Assembly: GCA_964035545.1 (NCBI GenBank)
Contig: OZ037766.1
Location: 7,045,722-7,109,721 of the forward strand
Reading direction: 5' to 3'
Source: Bugula neritina
Lineage: Eukaryota > Bryozoa > Gymnolaemata > Cheilostomatida > Bugulidae
Length of the DNA: 64,000 bases
Every line of letters begins with the position of its first letter. The stretch's first letter is position 1. The position numbers and the translations under genes were made by a program. Positions 9,952 to 61,968 of the stretch are shown in pieces. The notes beneath the pieces were generated by a model, which saw only the letters and a program-made list of their open reading frames with translations, was not told the origin of the DNA and searched no databases.

Positions 9952-12002
9952 GGGGAAGACGGGGTAAGTTGGGTCAAGGGGCAAGTTGGGTCAGGCCATT
10001 TTCTCGAAATCTGCAATGCTAGGAAACTAAATAGTTAGGTCAAGAAATAAAGGCCAAACTAAAATAACTTCCTGTTATTACAACAACACTATCAGAAAAG
10101 AGGTGAGTGAAATATTAGCGAATATCAATATTTTTGCCTCATTTGACATTTTGTTCACCAAAACAGTAAACCAAAATTGTGTCATTAAGCATGAGGATAG
10201 AGTGCTGATGTTTTGCATCATGGATGCTTAAGTAGTTAGCTTATATTTGGTAAATTATAAAACTTTCTAAATTAATTTGTTCATGCAAAAATTACATGCT
10301 TTACAAAATTGCTGCCAATGGGGCAAGTTAGGCCAAAATTTTGAGGCTAATTGGGTCAGTGGCCCAACTTGTCCCAATTCACTAAACATAGTGTTAATGT
10401 AAATTTATTGTTGCAGATCATGATACTGGATAATCACTGTTCACATATATCCTTAGAGTCTGTAACTCTTGCTAAAGAATCAGGTGTTGTTCTACTCACC
10501 TTGCCACCACATACTTCACACCGATTACAGTCTCTGGTTAGAACTGTTTTCGGTCCAATGGATAACTTAATGATAACCTATCCGAACAGGAGCATAAAAG
10601 TGCAAAACATTGGCACCCTAACAGAGCGAGCATTTGGACAAAACATGACTGTTGCTAATATAACATCGGGCTGTCGCTCATCTGGCATATTCTCATCAAA
10701 CGCATGCATATTTACCGACGCCGACTATGTTCCAACCCATGCTACGGACAGACCTCAAACAGTGATCAATGAGCAAGATATTCTGATTCAACTTAGCCAA
10801 GTTTATCTTAACTAACTTTATTCCAGATTCCAATTCACAATCCAACAACTTCTGGTTTATTGGCAGGGGTTACTTCTCAGGATACTTCTACTTCACTGGT
10901 GGTGGCTATCTCTAAGCAGCCTGTTACCCCTCAAGATATTATTCCCTTACCCAAAACTGCTCCACGCAAAGATGGAGCACCCGGAAGAAAGCAGGTAAAG
11001 ACCACTATACTGACAGACACACCAGAGAAAGAAAGAATCGAACAAGAATGAGCAGACAAGTTGAATAAAGGAAAGAAACGACTTAAGCGTAGGCCTACAC
11101 AGAAAGGGCCAGAATCTTGCAGTGAAGAAGATGAGCAGAACCATATAGTTTTGCTAGAGACAGACAGCGATTCACCATCCGAGGCGGAAGCAGAAAAACA
11201 GAATGTGGCAGATGTAGAAGAAGTGGCGTTTGTAGTGGTAAAATACAAAGGAAACCGTTCAACCATAGGTTTTGTTGGAATGGTGGTTGGCAAGGATGAA
11301 GGAGATTGGAGAGTGGACTTTTACAAAAAGACTCTACAGGGCACATTCTCTAAACCATCACAGCCAGACATATCTGCAGTAGAATCTGAGCAAATTGTTA
11401 GAGTGCTGGGGGCACCTGTCTCAACTGGAACAACTGTTCGAATTCTAGGCTGTGTTAGTTTAGGCAAAAAACTAGATGGCATGGGCTTTGAGTCGAGTTA
11501 GTTTTCTTGATGTCTTTATTAAATAAAAATAATAGCCCCAAGCAGATTTGGTTTACTTCTTTTTTGCCCATTCTCAGAGTCTGAACTCAAATAATCTCAC
11601 TAACTTAGATGATGACTGGGGGCCTATGTTATAAACTTTGTATGTTTTTCTCTAACTAATATGCTGTTAATCATTACTTAGACTTAATGAGAATTAATAA
11701 ATTAAATTTATTTCACTAATATGTTAGATGCCATAGTAATGAAATAGCGACCCAACTTGCCCCATTTGTTTTTGGTGGTGACCCAACTTACCCCTCAAGC
11801 GGGGTAAGCTGGGTCAGAAGAAAGGTTTTACGGTATTATCTGTAGCTGACTATAAATTGTTGGTGTTGCCTCAAAATAAAGTTGGGCTATTGCAGATAAC
11901 ATGTTAATCTCTCTTTATAACAAACAGTTTGAAATTTACGTGCTTAGATCGGCCACAATATTAAAAAAACCAATTTTTGACCCAACTTGCCCCGCCTTCC
12001 CC
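9952..12002 (+). mobile_element. pogo/Tigger-like DNA transposon, defective
   Basis: The terminal inverted repeats are GGGGAAGACGGGGTAAGTTG at 9952 and, read inward from 12002, GGGGAAGGCGGGGCAAGTTG. TA is duplicated at 9950-9951 and 12003-12004. Removing the element restores the sequence seen uninterrupted at 6441-6460 in the sister unit, which is therefore a natural empty site. Subterminal copies of a GGGTCA/GGCCCAACTTG-type motif occur near 9975, 10320-10375 and 11750-11820. The interior holds a broken transposase related to Tigger proteins. Length is 2051 bp. Confidence 0.85.
10417..11501 (+). pseudogene. Tigger-type DDE transposase remnant
   Basis: The frame from about 10417 starts inside the DDE domain with ILDNHCSHISLE, the second catalytic Asp context, then LLTLPPHTSHRLQSL. 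In the pogo/Tigger family the next residue is the third catalytic Asp (LQPLD); here it is Val. About 60 aa that normally follow FGP are missing, and the frame ends near 10815. The C-terminal part continues in another frame from 10860. It has an in-frame TGA at 11049-11051 and then an acidic/Ser-rich stretch followed by a domain like the C-termini of Tigger-derived proteins (FVVVKYKG...FVGMVVG), ending at 11501. The DNA-binding N-terminal half is absent. The copy is therefore dead: truncation, lost catalytic residue, frameshift and stop. Confidence 0.75.
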
Positions 12003-28720: not shown

Positions 28721-31700
28721 TTAGCAGCTGTCACATGTGAATGGGCACATGCTCCTCACTCTAAGGGAGATCATGCATTTGTTTTGATAGTCGGGGCACT
28801 TTGAATCCTTGTCAGCGCATCCAGCTTGTACAACTGGAGGTTGAGTTGTAGTTGAAGGTTTGATTGCAACCTAAAACCAAAACAATATGACATCATATCC
28901 TAGTAACAGTATATGCTATGGTTTCTATGTTTATATGGCATATAATATACTGCAATGCCATTTAATGGTTTTTAAATTAAGAGTTGTCTTCCTTTATGAT
29001 CCTACTAATGTAATGAACTACCATATTACTCTATATTTTCATATATACCATTCTTGACATTGATGCATTCACCACAAGTGGGTTGCAATATGATGTGACA
29101 TATAGCTCATTATCTTCTGACAGAAAGAGAGTACTCATATTGAGTAAATTATACTACTTTGGTCTATTACCAGCAGTGCATCTTAACTTAAATTCTTCGA
29201 ATTATAATTTCATAAAAAAAGGTTTATAAATACGTGTTGCAAAATAAGGTGAAAAATTACATATAAGCAACCCTTACATCACTAGCTGTGCATGTTCCAC
29301 AGGTCTTCATACAGTTCATACTCAAATAACTACTGTAGGCGGGCTCTTCACAATACCGCTCCCAGCTGGGACAATAGGTTGACATATCTTCACAGTCTAT
29401 AAAACAAAAAATATAAAAATGTCTTATGAAAATAGCAGTAGCATTGAAATAGGCTAAGTTAAGACACTGGCAAGTAATGAATAGAGTCAATGTTTAGGCC
29501 TACACAATTTAAGACCACAGGCCAAATTTTTATCATGCTTGTACCATGCCTTCTAACCAAATTATCATAATTGTATTCATATCATAACGGAATATCTGTG
29601 ATGAAACCAAATTTATGCTATATTGTAGTAGCACAGATGATACATAACACAGTGTTAGAAGCAGACCAAGTACCTGGTGCTGGGTTATTGCAAGTGTCAC
29701 AAGATTTCTGACAGTTGACACTCATGTAGGAGGGGTTTCTGGAGCATTCTCCGTTTTCTGCCCAGGTAGGGCAGTATTGGTTGTTGTCAGTACATCCGGT
29801 CACAGTTGGTGTTGTAGTGGCTACGGTTGTAGCTGTGAAATACAGGAATGCCTTACATAAGAGGCAACAACTCTTTTATGTAATGCTCTAATGCAATGTA
29901 ATGCTCTATCAAAACCCTGTTATTTTGTGTTACTCTATCTAAACTAATCAAGAATTGGCAACGTTGGGTAGTCATTAAGACAATGAAATATGATCAAACT
30001 ACATACTTTCCTAAATGAAAATTTTAAGATAGTTTATCCTTGAATAGCTAAGATTGAATTACAATAAAAACGGTTTTTTATATTATATATTATATAATGT
30101 ATACTAATCTTTTGGCAAAAGCTTTTTTGTAACTAATTTATCAATAAACAATTGGTTGATTAGATAGATAAAGGATAAGCACTTACTGGCACATGTTCCA
30201 CAACTGAATCTACAATTAGTAGACATGAAAGTTTGGTAACGAGAATCAGTACAGTAGCCAGTATCTGCCCATTGAGAACAGTACTGGTTAGAATCTTGGC
30301 AGTTCAGAGGAGCCCTGGTAGTTCTTGAAGTAGGTCGTGGGGTGGTAGCGACTGGTGCAACGGTAGCTGTAATAGATAAATATGGCATATGGGTATTGGA
30401 TACTTATATGGATATTAGTTTCAGTGTGATTACAGAGTATAAGTGATGTAGTGTGGTGGCAAATTCTTACCAACAGTTCCGTCGCATATTTTAATGGGAC
30501 TGGCTCGGTTTCCAGAGTCACACCAACATCTGCAGTCTGGTCCTTGGAATCCCTGAGGACAGGTTCTTGCTGCGCATCCATTGGCTAAAATAAAACAAAT
30601 GAAAAAAAATTATGAAAATGTATAAAAATTGTGTAATATTAATGATTTATTTTAAAAAAGCAGAATATTATAGCCTTATAAACTATGCTACATAAAAAAC
30701 TTCTTACCTGCAGGGCAGCCGTAGATGGTATTGGCAAGCTGAATGTCTTTGAAACTGAAACCATCTCGATTTCCCATAGCATTTTGAAATCTCGAGTCTC
30801 TTGCAAGGATTGTTGGCTGGCCATTAGCACTGAATGCCTGTAAAACAAAATATTGCTGGCTGATTATTTAAAGAGAAAGCATTTGTCTTCCCCACGCACC
30901 ATGTTGCAATGCACCAATAAATAAGACCATGCCATATCATCTTTTACCAAAGCTGAGGCTCCTTGCATCGTGTTTGGCCTTTAGAAAAGGCCAACAGCTA
31001 TATTGATGGCATCAAAAGCTGCGTTTGTTCAGATTTCTCAACAAATAAATACAGGCCACAAAGTTTTTTGCACATAAATATAATTTCAATTCAAATCCAA
31101 AAACCTAAGTCTATATTTAGAAACTTGGGTATACTACAAACAAGTTTTTTTAGCAAATTAAATGCCCAATAAGGTATGTAGCATTAAACTCACGTATTGG
31201 GAATAGTGCATGACACTGGTGTAATCATATGGCACACCATAGCTGCTGACTTGAGAAGCTGGGTACCTCATGAAGTTGTATGCCACTCCTTGCTGAATGT
31301 TTTGCGTATTAATATAAACAAACCCATCTCTGTCAGGTCTAGTCTGCTCATGCTGGAAGCCAATGGCGTGTCCAATTTCATGAATAACTATTCCTTTCTA
31401 CAACAAAAATGTAATACATTATAATATTTTTTCTATTGCTACACAACTTCAAAAATTTAAATAAATATTGTATATCCATTATAACAGGTTTGATTAAAAG
31501 TGGCCCAAATAAAAAGAGCAATGGAATTCTACTGCAAGATCTATTTATAGAAATAGTTAAAAACTGGTATTATAAGAAATTAGTTGCAGCCGCTATATAA
31601 GTAGATATATAAGTATATAGTACGGTAGTATGACATTTTTACTTACATATCTACACCCGGGAGCTAAGGTAACAGGCTGGACACCACCAATCATACCAAC

Positions 31701-32876
31701 ATATGATGAACAACCACCTCCATTTTGAAATCGGATTCTATTTCTGTCAGCGGATGATGCCGGAACAAATCTGAGACACGTGTATCGGTGGTAGTCGGCA
31801 ATGGCCGACATTATTACTTGCCTGTCACTTGAACCTGAAAAATTTACCAAATAATTAAATTTATGAGTTAAATTTATTTTATGAAAGATGCTATTAAAAA
31901 TGTATAAATGAGATTTCTGGCTGAACCCCAACCCCCCCCCCTCCTTTCTTAAACTAAAACATGTGAATTCTACTCACTAAACACATTATTCATGTCGTAT
32001 GGGACTCTTCGGTTTGTCCATCTAGCATTCGTGTTTGTAGTAGCTTTCCTCTTCTTCCTTCTTCCTTGTGTTGTAGTTTGATTTTCCATGGCATCCATTT
32101 CCTTTAAAAAGCAGGTTATTGATTTACAATGGCAATTTAATAGTTGATTTTACGAACAAATATCTAACAGTTTTATTTTTTTCTAAGAGCGGTATAAGAG
32201 TTACGTACCTTTCTCATTTCCATGTAAGTATCCATTTTGTACAGCATGTCCATCTCTACCATTACAGTATCTTCATCTTGCATTATTTCAAACATTTTAC
32301 CTGTAAAACACCAAAATTGAGTGATTTCTATATCCAAGCTGAAGTTTGCTTTGGTTCTTGTTGGAAAAAAATATTTGTATATGGATATTATACTGAATCT
32401 TTCTGCATCAGTTTGTGTTACAATAGCACTTTAATTCTTTTTTATTCATTCACATATATAGTAAAAAAAAACAAAATGCATATTGGCAGAAATTAATTTC
32501 AACACTAATAATTGTATACCACTGAAATAGCAGTACTGAAAGTACTACAGAAGAAGGCTATTTTAATGCCTTCATGAAAAACTTCATATTGAACCTCCTA
32601 ACCCTCCATGTCTAAAATTATTGACAAGAACAAACTACTTACTCATACTCTTATTGGATGCTGCTGCCATGATGGCGCCATCCATACTCATTTGTTTTCC
32701 TTTAATCATCATAGCCGTGGAGATAGCAACCATTGCCAGCTGCAGAAGTGTAATATAGTAAGTATAAACAATAATCAATCATCAATATCATTAAACTATA
32801 TTACACTGTATATTTTAAAAATAGCAAATTATATGCTTACCAAAGCTGCACTGGTTAAAAAGAATATACGAGCCAT
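28721..32876 (-). CDS. Astacin metalloprotease with four ShK domains
   Basis: Paralogue of the downstream neighbour, same strand. Exons: 32876-32841, 32739-32643, 32300-32209, 32101-31978, 31834-31647, 31397-31194, 30837-30708, 30584-30471, 30366-30187, 29832-29674, 29396-29278, 28870-28721; 530 aa. Exons 1, 5, 6 and 7 match the other gene exactly in length (36, 188, 204, 130 nt), and phases agree throughout. Signal peptide 1-22; the propeptide ends in a basic run RRKKRK before the mature start [10 protein letters not shown]. The zinc site [12 protein letters not shown] is at about 185, and the Met-turn is SVMHY. The Cys-rich segment [10 protein letters not shown] is in exon 8. ShK domains occupy exons 9-12, the last ending Cys-Asp-Ser-Cys-stop. 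All catalytic residues are intact, so it is likely an active secreted protease; substrate is unknown. The RRKKRK run suggests furin-type processing, which the paralogue lacks in that form (it has KTKRK). Confidence 0.93.
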
Positions 32877-35558: not shown

Positions 35559-38500
35559 CTAGAGATAGTAGAGTTTGTCTGCAAGATGTTCAGAAGGATC
35601 TCTTCTTATGTTCTCTCCGATCAGATACGCCAACTTGTGAGCATACTAAAATCAAAACCAGTTAAATAGTTGACAAAACATTCTAACTATTCAGTGTACT
35701 TAATTAAAACAATTGATCCCAAAATATCTTACCCTGTATTTCATCCACATTCAATTGAGTAAAAAAGATGCTTTGTTACTACATGAACCCATCTAATGCA
35801 TATATAGCAGTACTACAACTGAGGGGAATGTAAATAAACTGGCATAGATAGATTGGTGGAGATAGAAAGTAACCAGCTGACTGGAAAAACTGCATCATTC
35901 AAAAAGAGACGACTACTTAACTTTATCAGATAATGAGAGTAACATTTGTGAAAGACATGGAAAGGCTCATTCACAGAGTAACATGGCATACAATATGTAG
36001 GGCTTCACAACAATACTCCCATTAAAATAACATCAGCATACAATTGAGAAAGGAAATGATTCAAATTAATAAAACAAAGTATAATCTCTGCTATCATTGT
36101 AAACAAATATATTAATCTGAACAATTATCAGATCATTCACCGTCATACAATTACTGAGTAACCACTAATGACAGCATGTTTTGAAATTTGAGAATACAGT
36201 ATATGTGAAATAGCTGCTGTTTATTGCCAGTTAATCCACATACAAAATTAATTACTAAATAACAGAGTTCAAACACAAATCACACCATTACACAATATTT
36301 AAAGACATTTCAGAGTAAAATTCCAGTCACAACAGTCACAAAGTAGATGAGTTTCATATTGCAGCACTAACTTAGTTTTCACAATCTTCAGACAAATGTT
36401 CTTATAAGATTAGTTAATTGCAAGTCTGTGTAGTTACACAGTTTGCAGAGCACATAATTTTATATCTCCTTAACTCTCATAAAAGGAACTGAAAATAATT
36501 GCACCAACTTAGCCAATAGGTGTGCTTCAAATTACAGACCTATACCCATATCCTTTACTTTCCGAAATATCCTTAACTGAGTTAGTGTTTACAAATCATG
36601 CACATCTGTTAGTGATTTAAAGTCCAGATGATTTGGACATGAGAAGAACCTAAGATATCTGTTTGACATTTAACATTTACGTGTCATTCATCATAAAATG
36701 ATTGGGTTTCAACATATATATATAACTGTTTATATGCACAGCATATGCACCATGTGCCTACAGCCCACAATTTCTTGACCCCCCCAACTATTATTTATAT
36801 TTCATAACCTCATAAATATATACTGTATGACTCTCACTTGAATAATAAGATACTTCTATAACAACACTCAAATTGTAAAAATCAATGTAATTTCTGTTTA
36901 GAAAGGAAATAGCAACCAAGAGCCAATGTGATTGCACTAGGATAACATTATTTGTATTAAGAGTGCTTCTTCATGAAATTATACTTTATCATGACATAAG
37001 TCCTAAGAAGACACCAGCTAAAGTTAGCAACTATACATGAGTTGACTTGTAAATTATGATGAATCAACTACATTTGTTTTCACACAACTATACAAACACT
37101 GATTGGTATCCTGTAACTGTAACAACAAAAAGCTGCCACAGTTCTTGCGCAGCTACATGACTATATACGTAGATCCCAGCAGGTTGAAGTGTACCATATG
37201 TGTACATGCTATGCACTATGCTGATTACATGGATGGTTAACGGATACTACTCCCAGCAATTTTGAATGTTTGGGAGAATTCAATGTTTAAACTTGAACAT
37301 TATTAAACGCACACCAGTGTCCATACATATAGCACATTTACTGCAGTGCTTAAAAACTTTAATCTGCTTCAATAACCTCATAAAGGCTGAATCCAAGTTA
37401 CCACTATGAAGTCTGACAATACAAATACTTTACTAACAATTTCTAGAAGGATTCTATACCTGACAAGGAGCAGGTACTCTGACAGTGCCTGTCCAGTTGT
37501 AGTAGAGGTGACACATCTTGTAGGCCAACTGTTGTAGGTTGTCACTACGTAGCTGTGTGTTGTCATGTACCACAACATAGTGAGTAGGTGTTACCGTGCC
37601 TTGAGTTACGTGCTGAGACACCAGGTAGAAATCATACCTACACAGACGGCATTACACACAGTTGAGTTGATGTTACGAATGAAATTAAGTTGATAGCAAA
37701 ACATGACATACATTCTAGACATGAGAATATGAAAGCCACGAGGTTGCAGAAGGAACCCACTTACCACTTAGCCTTGGTGACAGTGTGATCTAACACAGTA
37801 CCAGGTGGGGGGTTATCCATAGCCTACAAGAACAAGAAAAGCTTTACACAACAGAAAAACATTTGTTTTGGAGCTTTTTATTTTCAGAACAGAAAACAAG
37901 CAGCAGTTGAAATCACAAACTACATTCTCTAGAATCTAGATAATAGAGTTCAGTGACTCCTGCTACAGAGAGAAACCAAATGACCTGCTTACCCTGGCTG
38001 AACCTCAACACTGACCTGTCTATTTATAGCGAAGAATCTGGTGTTGATTCTTTTCTGCACCACAACCACTATGAGGCCGGGTGGCTGTATCTTGTACTGT
38101 TCAAAGGAGGTGAAGCAAGATAACAGTTGGCTAACTTCGTGGTTGGCTACTGTCTCCAACATGGAGTCACCAACGCCATCTCTGAACACTATAATCTTGT
38201 CTGGGAGAATGTTGTTGATCTGCCAATAATAAACTGGAGTCAGAAAAAGGAGTGAGATGCAGTGATGGAGAAATACTAGCGTTCTAATGCAGCAAAAATA
38301 GGTTATGTGTTCAACCAAATTTATCAAAAAATTAAACAATTAAAACTTTTTATTACTGTACATAAGCTGAATATAGCACCACAAAAAAAACATAACAAAA
38401 AAGCATATGATAATTACATAAACATATTTAAAAATGGGCCGACTTTAAAGGCATATAATATACTTATTTTAAGGCCGTTGTTATAACCATTTTACCTAAA

Positions 38501-53070: not shown

Positions 53071-56000
53071 ATGAGTGGGGATTCTGAATCGAAGAGAAGT
53101 GTTGGCCACCTTCAACAACCCAGTGAATTAATTCAGGATTTACATTCTATCAATGCCGTGAAGTTTGGTTCATTCAAGCTAAAGTCGGGAATTATGTCTC
53201 CATTCTATTTTGATCTTCGCGCCATGATTTCATACCCAAACACACTGGTTTGTATCACTATGGCCTATCTATTCATCTGCTCTAACTATTTCATTGACTG
53301 TACATCTACAGTTACAATTAATCCAAATTATTAATATTAATAATTGAATCATCTAGTGGTTGCTGGACTTCATGGTTCTGGTATTCATTAAAACAATGCA
53401 CTTGATTATATCTGTGATGATACATCTAGACAATGACCAATAAAGTATTTGGGAAGGTTTATTTTATATAAAGCTTTGCTGCCGCTCTTGAGACATTAGC
53501 TACTGTTCTTTTTATATATATTCAGTCAGCTCATAAAAACTCGTGCGATAGCTAATACTTGCCTTAGTAGAGTGTTTGTAAATGTTTAATGTAAAAAGAG
53601 AAGTTTCTTTTAGCGCATGTGGCTCATTTAACAGACGTGCAAGAACTGTCAACAAAATGTCATTTAATGGAATTCTTTCTTGAAAAATATCTGTTGCTGC
53701 ACCTGGCTGCATTTATATGGCTCATCTTGGTTGTACCTGTTACTAATGTTCAGATTTAGAGCTGTTGACAATGACTTAGTTAGATTTTTTAAAGGAATGT
53801 GGTTTCATGTGCTTAGATTGTTATACACTGTTTTGTTATATGCTATGAGCAAACTATTGTTTGCTTTCTTCCGTCTTCTGACAGTGGGAAATGGGAATCA
53901 ATGCTCTTGATCTAAAGAGTAAATGTTATGATATGAGAACATCATAATAGGAACAATGGAGCTGTTGGGTAAAGCTTTTTGTATTCTTTAAGTAGGCTTG
54001 CAAAATATTAGAGCTCTTCAAGTATAACATTCTATTTAGTTATTATAAGTAGGAAACAGGAAGTGCAATCTGTTGCTCTTCAAATGAGAAAATTGGGCTC
54101 CTTGTAATGTAAATTAGTGTTCCCCTTTGCCACAAGGACCTAAGCTTAGAATTGTAAACTGATATAAAATCACTTTTGTCATTTATCTCTGCCTTATAAA
54201 ATTGTTGAAAGCAAATATATTTTCCTATATGATCTGCAACAATGAAATAACAGAAGAAATGTTCTAGTTACATTGTCAACCTTATACTACTGCAAAGGTC
54301 ATAATACAGAATGGCTAAGTTTGTTTTTTAATGGTTTGTTGAATATATTCGTGAGGTTTAATTGTAAGTTAGTAATATTGATACATTTCTGTTGCAGCTC
54401 AAGGCCTCTGAGCATGTGTATGACATCCTTCGAAACCTGGAATATGAAAGTATATGTGGTGTGCCTTATACAGCATTACCAATAGCAAGTGTAAGTATAC
54501 AGCATTACCAATAGCAAGTGTAAGCATACGCAGTTTGCACTATACAGCATTGTTAATAGTAAATGTAAGTATGTATGCAGTGTACACTATACAGCATTTC
54601 CAATTGCAAGTGTAAATATATTGTATGATGTACACTACGGCATTGCCAATAGGTAGTGTAAGTATATGCAGTGCATCATATGCAACATATCAAGCATGGA
54701 GTTCATCATATTTTTTAAATTTCATTCCTCTAAAGTCTAATCCATATAATTAAGTTAATAGAGTTTATTATCACTCTTCTAGTAGCCAGGTAGTTGTGTA
54801 TTGGTCCAATAATATCAGTGTATGATGGTGTGTGACTAACCTTGCAGTGCATATCAACCATGCATCGTGTTCCGATGCTGCTCAAAAGGAAAGAAGCTAA
54901 AAGTTATGGTACAAAGAAGATGGTAGAAGGCGTGTTTGTAAATGGTGATCGCTGCGTAATCGTTGAGGATGTGGTGACCAGTGGTGGCAGTGTGCTGGAA
55001 ACAGCTGCAGTAAGTCTTTCAATATAATATCTTTTTAAATATCTAGTGTGTTGCAGGATGTTTGAAACACAGGCTATACGTGCCGCAAAGTGAGAAAACA
55101 AATGAAACTACACTGCTGTAGGTGGTTAATTGTCACAACTACAGGGTCATCAGTGAGTGAGTCATTGTCCCGAATTTATTTTCAAGACATGTATGCACAA
55201 AATGTATTATAAAACTAATATGCTTGGGCCTGCTACCCTGGAGCTTTATATAGGTGGTAGTCAAGATATATGCGAGTAATTGAATACTGCATAAAGGTAG
55301 CATGTCAAGGATTCTTTTACTATTATCATGTATATAATGACCATAGACACTATCTGTGTATCTCTATATTCTATAATACAATGAGATTTGATGGTATTTT
55401 TCTTCATTGTATGTGATGTTAGTTTAATGTCTCTACGATGCGTTATAGAGTGATGAGGTCCCGAAAAACTTTGAAATTTGTTGGCCAAAATGGCTGTTTA
55501 AGGGTTTGTTTATAGCTCTGTCATGTTCTAGCATATTTTTATTTCGACACCCATTTGAAATGTAAAAGAATACAAGAAAACTTATCCAAACAAAACTTAC
55601 AAATATTTAACCTCCACCTCTAGCTCTTGAGGCAAAAAATTCCATAGCCCTAAACAGGCATTGTCAGAAAGTATGATTATGTAAGTAAGAGATTGTTATT
55701 TTAGAAGTTCTAGTCAGTGCAGTCTGTCTATCAGATTTTACTGTGAAGTGTTGCTTTAGTGTCTGAAAAGTGAAGGCCTGGTGGTGACAGACGTCATAAC
55801 TATACTAGACAGAGGTCAAGGGGGTCAGAAGAATCTGGAGAACCAGGGTATTACTCTTCACAGGTGGGCGGAGTGTGTCACGGCTTATATTATTGCCTCC
55901 ACCTTCTGCATTAATGTGCATGTGGCATCTATGTTGGTGTATGAAATAACTGGTACATTATAGATCAGACTCAATGGGTTTGCAATTACTTCAAGATTTT

Positions 56001-59000
56001 TATACAACTTAGAAGCTGTTATTTATACAAAATAACAAAATACAAAATAAATGTTGCAAATTATCAAATTTTCTTGCCAACACTCAAATATTTATCAGTT
56101 TGAGTCTTTAAATATTGTTTTTCCATTTCTATCACGTCTAAATGCCTCTTTATATTGCAGCCTCATGTTATTCAATGATTTGTCAGTTTATCACAGTTAA
56201 TGGTATATTTTTGATAAATATGTCACGTAGGACTTTCCTAAATAGCTGTGCGGTTTGACTGTGTGGCTGGTTGTTTTGTCTTCAGTTTATCAAAGTTTGT
56301 TATCAATAGTTTGTTCTGTGGTTGGGATGCTCTAAAGTTATGTTAACCAGGTCACAGCTTTCAAACTTCAAAGGTTTTGTTTAAAATGTCATTATTATTT
56401 CTACACTCTTGCCTTATATAAATATTGTAGTGTATTGTCAATACAGTCCGTGATATCTGCTCTCCTGGAATCAGCCAAGATAACATCTGAGCAGGCAGAG
56501 ATCAGTCTTAACTTTATAGAAACCAATCAGCTGATAAGTAATTCTGTGATTGACCCCATCGAAGACATTGTTCTCCGGCTGCACGATATTGGCTCGTTCA
56601 GATTCGGCAGCTTCAAGTTATCCAATGGGATGATAACTCCCATATATATTGACTTGAGACTCGTCATCTCTCACCCCTCACTTATGGTAGTTTTTATGTT
56701 TATATTTCATGTTTATGTTATCAACTAGTCAAATAAACAGCCCAACTGTACAAAATAATGAACTTGACTGGCATTAATATGTTATTATATTTCCATTTTG
56801 TAGTTCAAAACACTTGTTTATGTGTAGAAACATTTCAAAGATTTGTCAGAGTAGGGATGAAATAGGCTACTATTTTGTTATATATTACATGCTATGCTTC
56901 AATGTATTACTATTCTCAACAGTCGGATATATGCAAGCAGATGTATAAGCTGGTAGAGGGTGTGGTCCAGTTTGATATACTCTGCGGGGTACCCTATGCC
57001 GCCCTTCACCTGGCTACGGTATGTTGAAGCTGTGTCATGGTTTAGTTGATATATTTCCTCTCTGCAATTTCGATTAGCTTCTATGTCCAAATTGTTTTAT
57101 TTATTCAATACTGTTGACGTTTCCGCAATATCTAGCTAGTTTATGCTCAAATCAATTTATCTAGCAAATTATATGGGTTTAAATTGCCTGCAATAGTTTC
57201 AAATACAACTTATTTTTAATTCGAATATATTATGCAGCTGCATATAACTATTATGTACACCAAATTTGGAAAAGGTTTTGGTAGATTCTGTGTAAAAGAT
57301 TACCCCAAACTAATAACTGTTTGCAGTCTCCTTTTTATTGTAATACTTGCATATTATATCTGTTATATTAGACTGCTGTTTTAGTGCATTGCTAATGACC
57401 ACGGGTTGAACAATGTTCTACTGAGAAAGGTGGTGAAGCAGTACGGCACTGGCAAGCTAATAGAAGGCGTCTACAAAGAAGGCCAGAAGTGTTTGGTGGT
57501 GGAAGATGTTATGGTTAGTGGACAGGGAATCTATGAGTCTTGTGAGGTGAGTCACGCCAGTCGTGCGACAAACTTATTTCCTGTAATTCTCAGATTACAC
57601 TGGAAAACCTGCTCCTTGTTTATATAAACATACCTGGTAGGTTTCATTTAGGCATTGGATTTGTTGAGATGAGCGTTTGTAATAGTTGTTTGTATTTGTC
57701 TTTTTTAAAGTCAAATGCCTAGAGTTACAGCAAAGTAAAGTACATCATTTAGCAATGCTGAACAACTTTTATGCAGTTCAATGATAAAACATGCTATTAC
57801 TCAAAATTTCCCCCCTTGCAAAAACTGTTGAGGATTTTTTTTAAAAGAGCATCAGAGTTTTATACAATGTCTTCCTATTGATTATTTATGCAACATGATT
57901 CTCAAAAAAGCTTTCCTATTTACTAATATGTTTTATTATATCAAAATAATTGTCATTTTTAGCCTTTGTGTTCTCTCTAAAAATAGAGACAATTTGAAAC
58001 AACTTTCTGAAACTAAAAACTGATGTAGCTGACATGACTAGATGCTATGTGAAAATCTCAGTCAGCTCGTGTAATATGAAAAGATAATTTCAAATAATTT
58101 ATGCTTTATCTGAGATCTGTATATAATTTATACTGTGCGCAATAATAATACTTTCTAGCACTAGTTAAGGTGTTTGTAACATTTGCCGTTTATTCCTCTA
58201 GAGCTTGAAGTCACAGGGGGTTGAGGCCACAGATGTTCTTTTAGTACTTGATAGAGAGCAGAATGGGGAGAGAAACTTGAAGAAGCAAGGCATCAGGCTG
58301 CACTGGTTAGATTTTCAGTTACTATATATATATATGTTACGCTGACACTATTCTGTTTATATCCGTTGGTGTCAAGGCCAAGCAATAGTTCTTCAGTCAG
58401 AGAAGATACAGTTTCAGATGGATCTTTTCCAAGTTTTGAAAATTGATTTTATTTTATTCCATATAATATAGTTTATTTTCTGATTGCAACATTAACATTT
58501 TTGGTTTTTATGTAAACTAACGCTTGTAAAGTTTTTTCCCCTCTTGTTGCTTGTATTTTATGCACTCTCCGTTATACTTTACCAATGTGATCGAATTAAC
58601 TTCCGTTGTTGATAGCTTAATTCGAGTGTCGGAGGCATTGGATATCCTGTTGAAGCATAAGCGTATTGACGCGGAGCTATCTAATGAAGTGATGCGTTTC
58701 CTGAAGGCAAACCCTGCAAACATTCCATTTAGCAAGGCAGAAGATCATCAACGAACTAGCCAAATTAACAAGGTGAACAACTTGCATCCAGATTGACTGG
58801 AATATTTGGTTCTCTATACTTTGAATAGTGCTTTTGCTGTGACTTAGTGATTGCTGTCATACAACTCCTTATGCTTTAGCTGCTGCCTTTCACTGAGAGA
58901 GCTGCCCTGTGCTCCAACCCAGTCTCCAAGAAGCTGTTTACTATAATGCATGAGAAGCACACCAACCTGTGCTTGTCTGCTGATGTTACCACTGTTGACA

Positions 59001-61968
59001 TGTTACTCAAGGTGAGTGTAATACCTGTTGATGTCACTTTACTGGAGATAGTTAGTGTGTTAGCTGTTGACAATTTTGAAATAGGCCATTACTGCTGTCG
59101 AATTACCAGATAACGATAATTGTTTCTTCTAACTAGAATCTCTCACACCCTTGAGCATCTTGTATAACATTCTGTTTATTCTGTCCACGTGTCATTTCGC
59201 AATAAAACTTCCCTTTGGTAAAAATCAAAGTATACTAAAATTCACTATGTTCTGAAAGAAAACCTAATAGTTGCGGGACATCAATTCACATGGCTGATTT
59301 CCACTCACATTTACCTGTAGTGGTATCTTATTGTTTTTCTCTCACATTTTTAACCAACACTTCTGGCAAAGTTGCAGCCGAATGTAAATACAATCAAATG
59401 TAGGATCTGGTTGCTGCAACTACTTTTTAGCGGAATGGTAAATACTTCTCCTTGTGATCAAGGACTGGATATATGTTAGAACATCTGTATAAGTCATAAT
59501 TAACTATAAAATTGAGGTTGCTTGTAGCCAAGTTGTTAACTGCTAAGTAATTGGTGCAGTGTTGTGGAAGTCTTCTGCCATATAACACTTTGTACTAATT
59601 ATTAGAGAGCTTGATATTTGCTGGAATTTGCTCAACATAATATATGTGCCCCAGTAATGTGCATTTTATAATGAAAGAGGACACAACTCCAAAGTATATG
59701 CATGGTGTGTGGTTTACTATATCCTGCAGTAGTTGGGAGGAGGTCCTCAGTTAGCAGACTCTTCATCTCAGTTTGTCCTTTACAGCTGGCAGATCAAGTT
59801 GGCCCACACATCTGTATGCTTAAGACTCATGTTGACATTTTGGAAGATTTTACGCCTGCGGCCGTCGCTCAGCTGGTTGAATTGTCGCAAAAACATAACT
59901 TTGTGATATTTGAAGACCGGTATGTAAACTTTCACATGTAGATTCTATCCGCTAACCAGTAAAGTGAATAAGATTTCTATGTGATGCAGTCACTAGTTTG
60001 AGGTCAAGTTTATAACAAAGTGAAGCTGTAGAATGTAAACTCTAGCATTTTGGAGATGTTCAGCTGTTACTCTTGTGTTCATTATTTTATTTAAGCTAGT
60101 TTCTAAAATTATTTATAGAATATCTCAAACTTGCAATAGAGAGACTTTCGGTGCATATGACTGCTAGCTGCATTTGCCCAGGCATTTTGATTCTGTTAAC
60201 CAATTTTGTCTGAAATGTGGATTTTTGTTGCTTTTCACAAAAGAATACATATTGCAAGTTTTTATTGAAACACATGTTTTTTAAACTCTTTTAATGCTAC
60301 ACTTGTGAGATTGAGATTTATTTTATAACATATACATCATGGTATGATTTGCAGTGCATAAAACATTATTTTAGTCTTAGTCAAAATTAGAAAATGGCTG
60401 AAGTTAGCTGCATATTTTATTCATCCAAACAGGAAGTTCAGTGACATCGGCTCGACAGTGAAGCAGCAATACGCAGGAGGGTTATACAAGATAGCTGACT
60501 GGTCTGAAGTAACTACTGCTCATTCTATTCCTGGACCTGGCATTGTGCAAGCACTGCAGGCTGTGAGTTTGTCTACTAATAGACTACTTCGTAGTAGAAT
60601 AAAAAAATGTATTTTCTACACCAATAAACATGTGAATGTACAGAGTTGGTCTTTGTACTACAGCCGTGTCATTGTGTCCTGTAGGTTGGCTCTCCGAAAG
60701 GTCGTGCTTGTGTCTTACTGGCTGAAATGAGCTCTAAAGGAAACCTTACCAATGCTAGCTACTCTGTTGGTAAGGTGTTTCCCAACACTCGCCTTTCTAT
60801 CTAATTATACTCTTTAAATATTTGTTTTTATTTTTTTTTAATATCACAAGAATGTGTCCTGTCAACTATCTTTTTGAAACATAATAATTGTATTGTTGCA
60901 CATTAATATGTGAAGCTTTCTCAGTTAGCTGGAGCTGCTATTTACTAGATGTACTATCAGCTGGTAGTCTTTGGAATTGTTGAATGAAAGCAAAAAAGTC
61001 ATCTTTCAGCTACAATGGTTGGCGAGTTTTAATGATATCTAGTTTTACAATTGCAGTGTGGAAGTTTGTAACTTGTTGGTTTTGATTGTAGCTACAGTGA
61101 ACATGGCAAGAGAGTACAGTGACTTTGTTATTGGATTTATCTCCCAGTCTAAACTGACCTCTGACCCCACTCTGCTGCACATGACTCCTGGTGAGACTTT
61201 CTACCCTCTAGTCTACGTGTTGAACTCCACTAGCTAAATACAACTTCATTTGTGTCTCTTGCATTTCATTGCCCATCGAAAAGTGTGTTGGTTAGCTATA
61301 GGTCTTGTAGTTTAAGACAGAAATAGGTAAATATATGTGTGTTTTGTGTGTGTATGTACCTACATATTATACAGATAGTACATGCTACCTGCATAGATAG
61401 TATATACTACCTGCATAGATAGTATATACTACCTGCATATATTTATATACTACCTGCATATGTTATGTGTATTTGTTTATTCATGTTTCAAGAATATGAT
61501 AGGGCATTCATTAGAAATAGCTGGAATATTTCTTGGTATATAGAAACTATAAAATTAGCTATATTTGGGCGTTTATTTCTGACATGGACATGTAGTGAAA
61601 CATGTTTAGTTTATTGAACTGATGTATCAAAATCTACTACTTTGAGCACATAATATGTGCAAAAGTTTGTCTAATTTGCCCATATTGCTGTTCAGGTAAT
61701 TCACAGGTACTGCAGTCAAACGCCTATCACAACACAGATGGTTTATACCTGCTGTATTGTAGGAGTGAAAAATACTGATAAAGGTGACAACTTGGGTCAG
61801 CAGTACGTCAATGCTGCCGATGCCGTGATGTTACGTGGTGCTGACATCATCATTGTTGGACGAGGAATAACTCAGGCAGCCGACCCAGTTGCTGCCGCTA
61901 TTGAGTATAAGAATCTAGGATACGAATCTTATGAGAATTTTAGAACTCAGCAGAAATCTGACGAGTGA
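53071..61968 (+). CDS. UMPS: UMP synthase with tandem OPRT domains
   Basis: Bifunctional last two steps of de novo pyrimidine synthesis: orotate + PRPP to OMP, then OMP to UMP. Exons: 53071-53247, 54398-54490, 54848-55009, 55760-55863, 56431-56686, 56923-57018, 57385-57546, 58202-58305, 58616-58772, 58880-59011, 59786-59919, 60433-60562, 60685-60769, 61092-61190, 61763-61968; 698 aa. OPRT1 about 18-180: Lys38 in KLKSG, loop KRKEAK (103-108), PRPP motif [10 protein letters not shown] (129-138). Linker helix 180-216. OPRT2 about 217-386: Ser243 replaces Lys38, the loop keeps LRKVVK, and the motif is [11 protein letters not shown] second linker runs to 437. Then the OMP decarboxylase domain: [22 protein letters not shown] (catalytic Asp/Lys/Asp) and a C-terminal IVGRGI phosphate site, all intact. 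Normal animal UMPS has one OPRT (about 480 aa). The start at 53071 is the first ATG before the OPRT domain. Confidence 0.95.
54467..54680 (+). repeat. 46-bp tandem repeat of exon 2 end and donor
   Basis: The last 24 coding bases of UMPS exon 2 (encoding YTALPIAS) plus its GTAAGT donor are repeated downstream about four more times with divergence. Donor-like GTAAG or GTAAA strings occur at 54491, 54520, 54565, 54612 and 54658. Using any later one would add 29, 74, 121 or 167 nt, none divisible by three, so only the first keeps frame. Confidence 0.85.
56431..58305 (+). other. Duplicated OPRT exon cassette (exons 5-8)
   Basis: Exons 5-8 repeat the pattern of exons 1-4: exons 3 and 7 are both 162 nt, exons 4 and 8 both 104 nt, exons 2 and 6 are 93 and 96 nt, and all internal introns are phase 0 at homologous positions. 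The cassette enters and leaves in the same phase (2) and totals 618 nt. It is therefore both a clear tandem duplication and an in-frame skippable unit. Confidence 0.9.

Follow-up and report, generated by a model that had tools for sequence, protein, structure and literature searches.

UMP synthase is a core enzyme that completes the synthesis of UMP. In animals and plants (e.g. human UMPS), it is a bifunctional protein in which an orotate phosphoribosyltransferase (OPRT) domain precedes an orotidine 5'-monophosphate (OMP) decarboxylase (ODC) domain. The same two enzymes are fused in the reverse order, again with one OPRT, in the Leishmania UMP synthase (3qw4) and in proteins of the PRK05500 type. 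Tandem enzymes with one inactive half, such as hexokinase I and the JAK kinases, combine a catalytic and a non-catalytic domain through internal duplication of folds unrelated to OPRT; to our knowledge, no such case has been described for OPRT. Homodimeric PyrE enzymes, including those of E. coli/Salmonella and M. tuberculosis, exchange a flexible loop, each subunit's loop covering its neighbour's active site (PMC10087573), where the equivalents of R97 and K101 (human numbering) are reported to act. Arg94 of M. tuberculosis OPRT (human R97) contacts pyrophosphate from the neighbouring subunit, whereas Lys95 (human K98) is grouped with the site's own residues (PMC5430920).

Here we describe a locus of the bryozoan Bugula neritina, a name that covers several sibling types, contained in a 64,000-nucleotide window of contig OZ037766.1 (positions 7,045,722 to 7,109,721, forward strand; GenBank assembly GCA_964035545.1), that encodes two OPRT domains (OPRT1 and OPRT2) followed by one ODC domain. 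As judged from its sequence, the locus is a bryozoan UMP synthase gene, with predicted conversion of orotate to UMP. It resembles the animal and plant enzymes in its domains, their order, the linker helix and an intact ODC motif, but differs in having two OPRTs ahead of the ODC and altered residues in the phosphoribosyl pyrophosphate (PRPP)/orotate site of OPRT2. It shares the fold of homodimeric PyrE, except that both protomers would sit in one chain with only one site complete.

Architecture and distribution of the tandem UMP synthase

The gene was rebuilt from the window DNA as 15 exons on the forward strand (53071-61968; Table 1), with all 14 introns bounded by GT..AG and compatible phases throughout. 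The spliced coding sequence of 2097 nt specifies 698 amino acids (aa) plus a stop codon, in the order OPRT-OPRT-ODC. This reproduces, with the same coordinates and length, the continuous exon series with 14 in-phase junctions described in an earlier note on this DNA, and the separate linker helix that the note placed after each OPRT is likewise found, in exons 5 and 9, both entered in phase 2. Pfam recognizes two stretches of PF00156 and one of PF00215 (199.8 bits) in the protein. When it was cut into three pieces for family scoring, TIGR00336 (pyrE) matched aa 1-214 with 138.4 bits and aa 215-433 with 114.9 bits (cut-off 106.8), and TIGR01740 (pyrF) matched aa 434-698 with 185.4 bits (cut-off 92.3). 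OPRT1 is identical to the human domain at ten of ten body and five of five loop residues, and OPRT2 has the OPRT fold. The D-x-K...D motif of ODC is present at aa 523; we take human D312 to lie within this motif, whose other residues presumably have their usual roles. D312N is the active-site mutant of human ODC (PMC9978035). Since each chain carries two OPRTs ahead of its ODC rather than one domain of each kind, the protein is a variant of bifunctional UMP synthase and not an ordinary member.

The same arrangement occurs in other records. The best protein match to the window, P0001 (B. neritina UMPS; 98% identical where aligned), is a partial model on a contig of 114,863 nt that starts within OPRT1, continues through OPRT2 and ODC, and omits some stretches present in the window model. 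P0005, also from B. neritina (contig of 26,055 nt), covers only part of OPRT2 together with ODC; both contigs presumably belong to an earlier B. neritina draft genome. Complete OPRT-OPRT-ODC proteins are found in Watersipora subatra (P0002; 691 aa) and in P0006 (709 aa, encoded on a 2,866-nt contig), each with two stretches of NF010382, two of TIGR00336 and one of TIGR01740. Among 194 proteins (193 search matches plus the window), two PRPP motifs precede the first ODC motif only in the window protein, P0001, P0002 and P0006, though the main protein search covered the best 120 of 2,736 matches and rarer cases may be missed. No second OPRT match was detected in the 185 single-OPRT homologues, i.e. 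191 proteins minus P0001-P0006 (the tandem proteins, the fragmentary B. neritina P0005 and two whole-enzyme repeats). A protein search with the OPRT2 region of P0006 returned P0006 itself, P0001 and two proteins named UMP synthase (472 and 488 aa). The OPRT-OPRT-ODC architecture is almost certainly real and present in at least two bryozoan genera. P0003 (Caranx) and P0004 (Eleusine), the two whole-enzyme repeats, likewise contain two OPRTs in an over-long UMPS record, but they repeat the entire enzyme (OPRT-ODC-OPRT-ODC) and probably represent adjoining genes merged in annotation. No description of a tandem-OPRT UMPS appeared among the papers listed by searches of an open-access library, judged by title or the start of the abstract; the 'two OPRT' wording in PMC9978035 refers to two mutants.

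The tandem locus is probably the sole UMPS of the genome, given that the ODC family profile matches only this gene (three places, among the best candidates scored); within that scope, a separate ordinary UMPS elsewhere in the genome was rejected. Under the same scoring, the pyrE profile matches four places, of which three are this gene and one is a short contig (G000:C243, L006; 2,721 bp). That match (C243:832-1221, reverse strand) is a phosphoribosyltransferase-like frame with three TAA codons and one TAG codon in frame. The contig opens with telomere-like CCCCAA repeats and appears to be a contaminant of the bryozoan assembly, namely a ciliate minichromosome, an assignment based on the telomere repeat and genetic code of ciliates.

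Site residues and flexible loop of the second OPRT domain

Residues are given here in human numbering, with equivalences drawn from alignments that include the M. tuberculosis and B. anthracis OPRTs. The OPRT2 domains of the window, P0002 and P0006 all carry the four substitutions K29S, P80H, T127V and S131G. In the 185 single-OPRT homologues, K29 and P80 are each present in 182, position 127 is Thr in 172, Ser in nine and Val in three, and S131 is invariant; 178 of them have lost none of K29, T/S127 and S131, seven have lost one, and none has lost two or more. These positions have been assigned to substrate binding: Thr124, Thr125 and Ser128 of M. tuberculosis OPRT (human 127, 128 and 131) bind the PRPP 5'-phosphate, with the residues at human 123/124 binding ribose and that at 41 binding pyrophosphate (PMC5430920), and E. 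coli K26, the counterpart of human K29, touches OMP, orotate and PRPP (PMC10087573). OPRT2 retains R41, E123, D124, S128, G129 and R155. The domain is also conserved. Between Bugula and Watersipora, 116/160 residues are identical in OPRT1, 140/168 in OPRT2 and 177/250 in ODC (OPRT2 versus OPRT1, Fisher p=0.023), and the corresponding figures against P0006 are 77/160, 98/168 and 131/250. OPRT2 is likely not a normal OPRT. Of the two full OPRTs and one intact ODC claimed in the earlier note, the ODC motif is indeed intact and OPRT2 spans the whole domain in length and fold, but with altered residues at conserved site positions. The note's proposal of a new UMPS architecture holds in so far as its suggested domain search of related proteins recovered the same order in Watersipora, the other B. 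neritina record and P0006; the implied notion of two equivalent OPRTs is not supported, with the OPRT2 site altered in the window, P0002 and P0006.

R97, K101 and G104 of the flexible loop are kept in 185/185 homologues, and the OPRT2 loop is intact at R97, K101, Y103 and G104 in all three tandem sequences. In P0006, the OPRT1 loop carries R97H and G104E alongside ten intact body residues, and OPRT2 has lost K98 and kept R97. OPRT1 of Bugula and Watersipora is complete at all 15 body and loop sites. The P0006 pattern is what would be expected if the sole working site combined the body of OPRT1 with the loop of OPRT2. The human interface positions S87 and Q90 are too variable among the 185 homologues to be informative.

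Table 1. Exons of the tandem UMP synthase gene and other features of the window (residue numbers are those of the 698-aa protein, except substitutions, which are in human numbering)
Feature	Position	Strand	Content
Exon 1	53071..53247	+	ATG start, N-terminus, OPRT1, aa 1-59
Exon 2	54398..54490	+	OPRT1, aa 60-90
Intron 2 start	54460-54660		End of exon 2 and its splice donor repeated in tandem several times, in degenerate form, just inside intron 2; seen by eye
Exon 3	54848..55009	+	OPRT1, aa 91-144; flexible loop R104, K108, Y110, G111; PRPP motif EDVVTSGGS
Exon 4	55760..55863	+	OPRT1 end, aa 145-179; 3' end splits a codon (exon 5 entered in phase 2)
Exon 5	56431..56686	+	Fusion exon, aa 179-264; OPRT1 linker helix and OPRT2 N-terminus in one open frame; K29S (S243)
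Exon 6	56923..57018	+	OPRT2, aa 265-296; P80H (H293)
Exon 7	57385..57546	+	OPRT2, aa 297-350; kept loop R310, K314, Y316, G317; altered PRPP motif EDVMVSGQG (V340, G344)
Exon 8	58202..58305	+	OPRT2 end, aa 351-385; 3' end splits a codon as in exon 4
Exon 9	58616..58772	+	OPRT2 linker helix and linker to ODC, aa 385-437; entry phase as exon 5
Exon 10	58880..59011	+	ODC
Exon 11	59786..59919	+	ODC (LKTHVD, FEDR)
Exon 12	60433..60562	+	ODC (KFSDIGS)
Exon 13	60685..60769	+	ODC
Exon 14	61092..61190	+	ODC
Exon 15	61763..61968	+	ODC C-terminus and TGA stop
Piwi-domain exon	37989-38339	-	PF02171, 57.2 bits
Astacin metalloprotease exon	31593-31973	-	PF01400, 54.8 bits
DDE_1 transposase-like fragment	10351-10815	+	21.9 bits, just below the Pfam cut-off of 22

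Origin of the duplication

An old in-frame, exon-level tandem duplication is the apparent origin of the OPRT1-OPRT2-ODC order, as read from gene structure. The two domains of the window are 38.7% identical, their exons correspond in pairs (93/96, 162/162 and 104/104 nt) with equal phases, and the best blastn alignment of one genomic half against the other had an E value of 0.075; together, these features point to an old event and not to a recent or assembly copy. The breakpoints would have lain in former exons 1 and 5. Phylogenetic analysis of 33 OPRT domains groups the three OPRT2 sequences in a single clade (100/99) on a long stem, with the bootstrap flagged as unsettled. OPRT1 of Bugula and Watersipora also pair (100/99), and OPRT1 of P0006 is a long branch of unsure placement. 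A single duplication before the three lineages split explains this tree, with the long branches as a caveat. In the ODC tree, P0006 stands apart from Bugula and Watersipora, and only 2% of 200 bootstrap trees unite the three tandem proteins; a single clade is nevertheless not rejected (p-AU 0.313), and P0006 is treated as a candidate bryozoan only.

That the arrangement is an artefact, produced by misassembly or by a gene model that reads through, or else an extra copy undergoing decay, is very improbable. Over-long and probably merged UMPS models do exist, as P0003 and P0004 illustrate, and P0001 is itself incomplete. However, the arrangement is carried by P0001 (both OPRTs), P0005 (OPRT2-ODC), Watersipora and P0006; OPRT2 is 83% identical between genera, and the two copies have unrelated introns. 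An assembly or annotation artefact was rejected on account of the other B. neritina contigs, the second genus and the introns, and the other records contradict the duplication of exons 5-8 during assembly that the earlier note had raised as an objection to its own reading.

Proposed pairing of the two OPRT domains and its alternatives

The best explanation of the whole, to which we give close to an even chance, casts OPRT2 as a pseudoenzyme partner of OPRT1 in the same chain, to which it lends the flexible loop while perhaps capping a polymerisation contact. By sequence, OPRT2 has kept its fold and loop while the residues that hold PRPP and orotate have changed. OPRT is commonly a dimer in which the flexible loop of one protomer covers the active site of the other, and on this basis we slightly favour an intramolecular pairing of OPRT1 with OPRT2 in place of the homodimer. 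The OPRT2 loop (R97', K101') could then be donated to a single working site on OPRT1, which we advance tentatively. Slightly less probable again is that a symmetric homodimer has become a one-sided single-chain pair in which OPRT1 keeps the substrate site and OPRT2 only the loop and interface. OPRT2 would also occupy the surface through which human UMPS polymerises by OPRT-OPRT contacts. Such a chain would amount to an OPRT that is always assembled, has a single site and passes OMP to ODC. If the decay in P0006 is reciprocal, neither of its OPRTs would work without the other. Overall, OPRT2 looks more like a built-in partner of OPRT1 than a second active site.

Several observations weigh against this explanation. 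K29S is weak evidence by itself, since active bacterial OPRTs can do without this Lys: Ser occupies the position in the aligned enzymes of M. tuberculosis and B. anthracis, some Gram-positives lack the Lys, and acetylating it reduces the E. coli kcat just 6-19 fold (PMC10087573). With R41, E123, D124 and R155 kept, OPRT2 may have residual activity. Its conservation over OPRT1 reaches just p=0.076 against P0006, a sequence that the ODC tree sets apart. The reciprocal loss is seen in P0006 only, where OPRT1 also has the body changes Y37F and V74D; Bugula and Watersipora retain both an intact loop in OPRT1 and K98 in OPRT2. The AlphaFold model has a pTM of 0.54, which leaves room for more than one arrangement of the two domains. 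In addition, the dimerisation-deficient human OPRT mutant S87T/Q90E keeps OPRT activity and human OPRT is called active as a monomer (PMC9978035), so loop donation may be unneeded in animals.

The human enzyme also underlies a rather unlikely alternative, in which OPRT2 fills the OPRT dimer face and blocks inactivating polymerisation, or tunes it by sensing PRPP or OMP, without lending a loop. The human UMPS polymer, built via OPRT contacts, is inactive, and the dimer-deficient OPRT mutant is active and seemingly unregulated in cells (PMC9978035); conservation of OPRT2 despite its altered site fits such a cap. It leaves unexplained, however, why the OPRT2 loop is intact in all three sequences while that of P0006 OPRT1 decays, and the free variation of S87 and Q90 among the homologues says nothing here. 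It is improbable that exons 5-8 are mostly skipped, making the tandem protein a minor isoform. Exons 5 and 9 share an entry phase, and the skip stays in frame, yielding a 492-aa OPRT1-ODC product with a canonical LHS-linker junction; isoforms are therefore possible. Against predominant skipping, P0006 suggests a spliced transcript with both OPRTs, since its 709 aa are coded on 2,866 nt, too short for introns like those of the window. P0002 also contains both OPRTs. Its genome has an Ensembl annotation built largely on aligned transcripts (PMC12902671), but P0002 itself is an NCBI/UniRef record. Comparably improbable is that OPRT2 is still catalytic, its kinetics or substrate having changed, so that the protein would have two active OPRT sites. 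Beyond the tolerance of Ser or other residues at 29, this draws on the kept fold, R41, E123/D124 and R155, the TIGR00336 score above cut-off and the occurrence of Val127 in three homologues. However, both T127V and S131G lie within the loop that binds the PRPP 5'-phosphate, the latter at an invariant Ser, and accompany K29S and P80H in every tandem sequence.

Being conserved yet altered in OPRT2, the tandem amounts to a natural experiment, both on whether the OPRT loop acts in trans inside UMPS and on the control of UMPS polymerisation. If it were found across the phylum, the tandem UMPS might, more speculatively, serve as a molecular marker for bryozoans.
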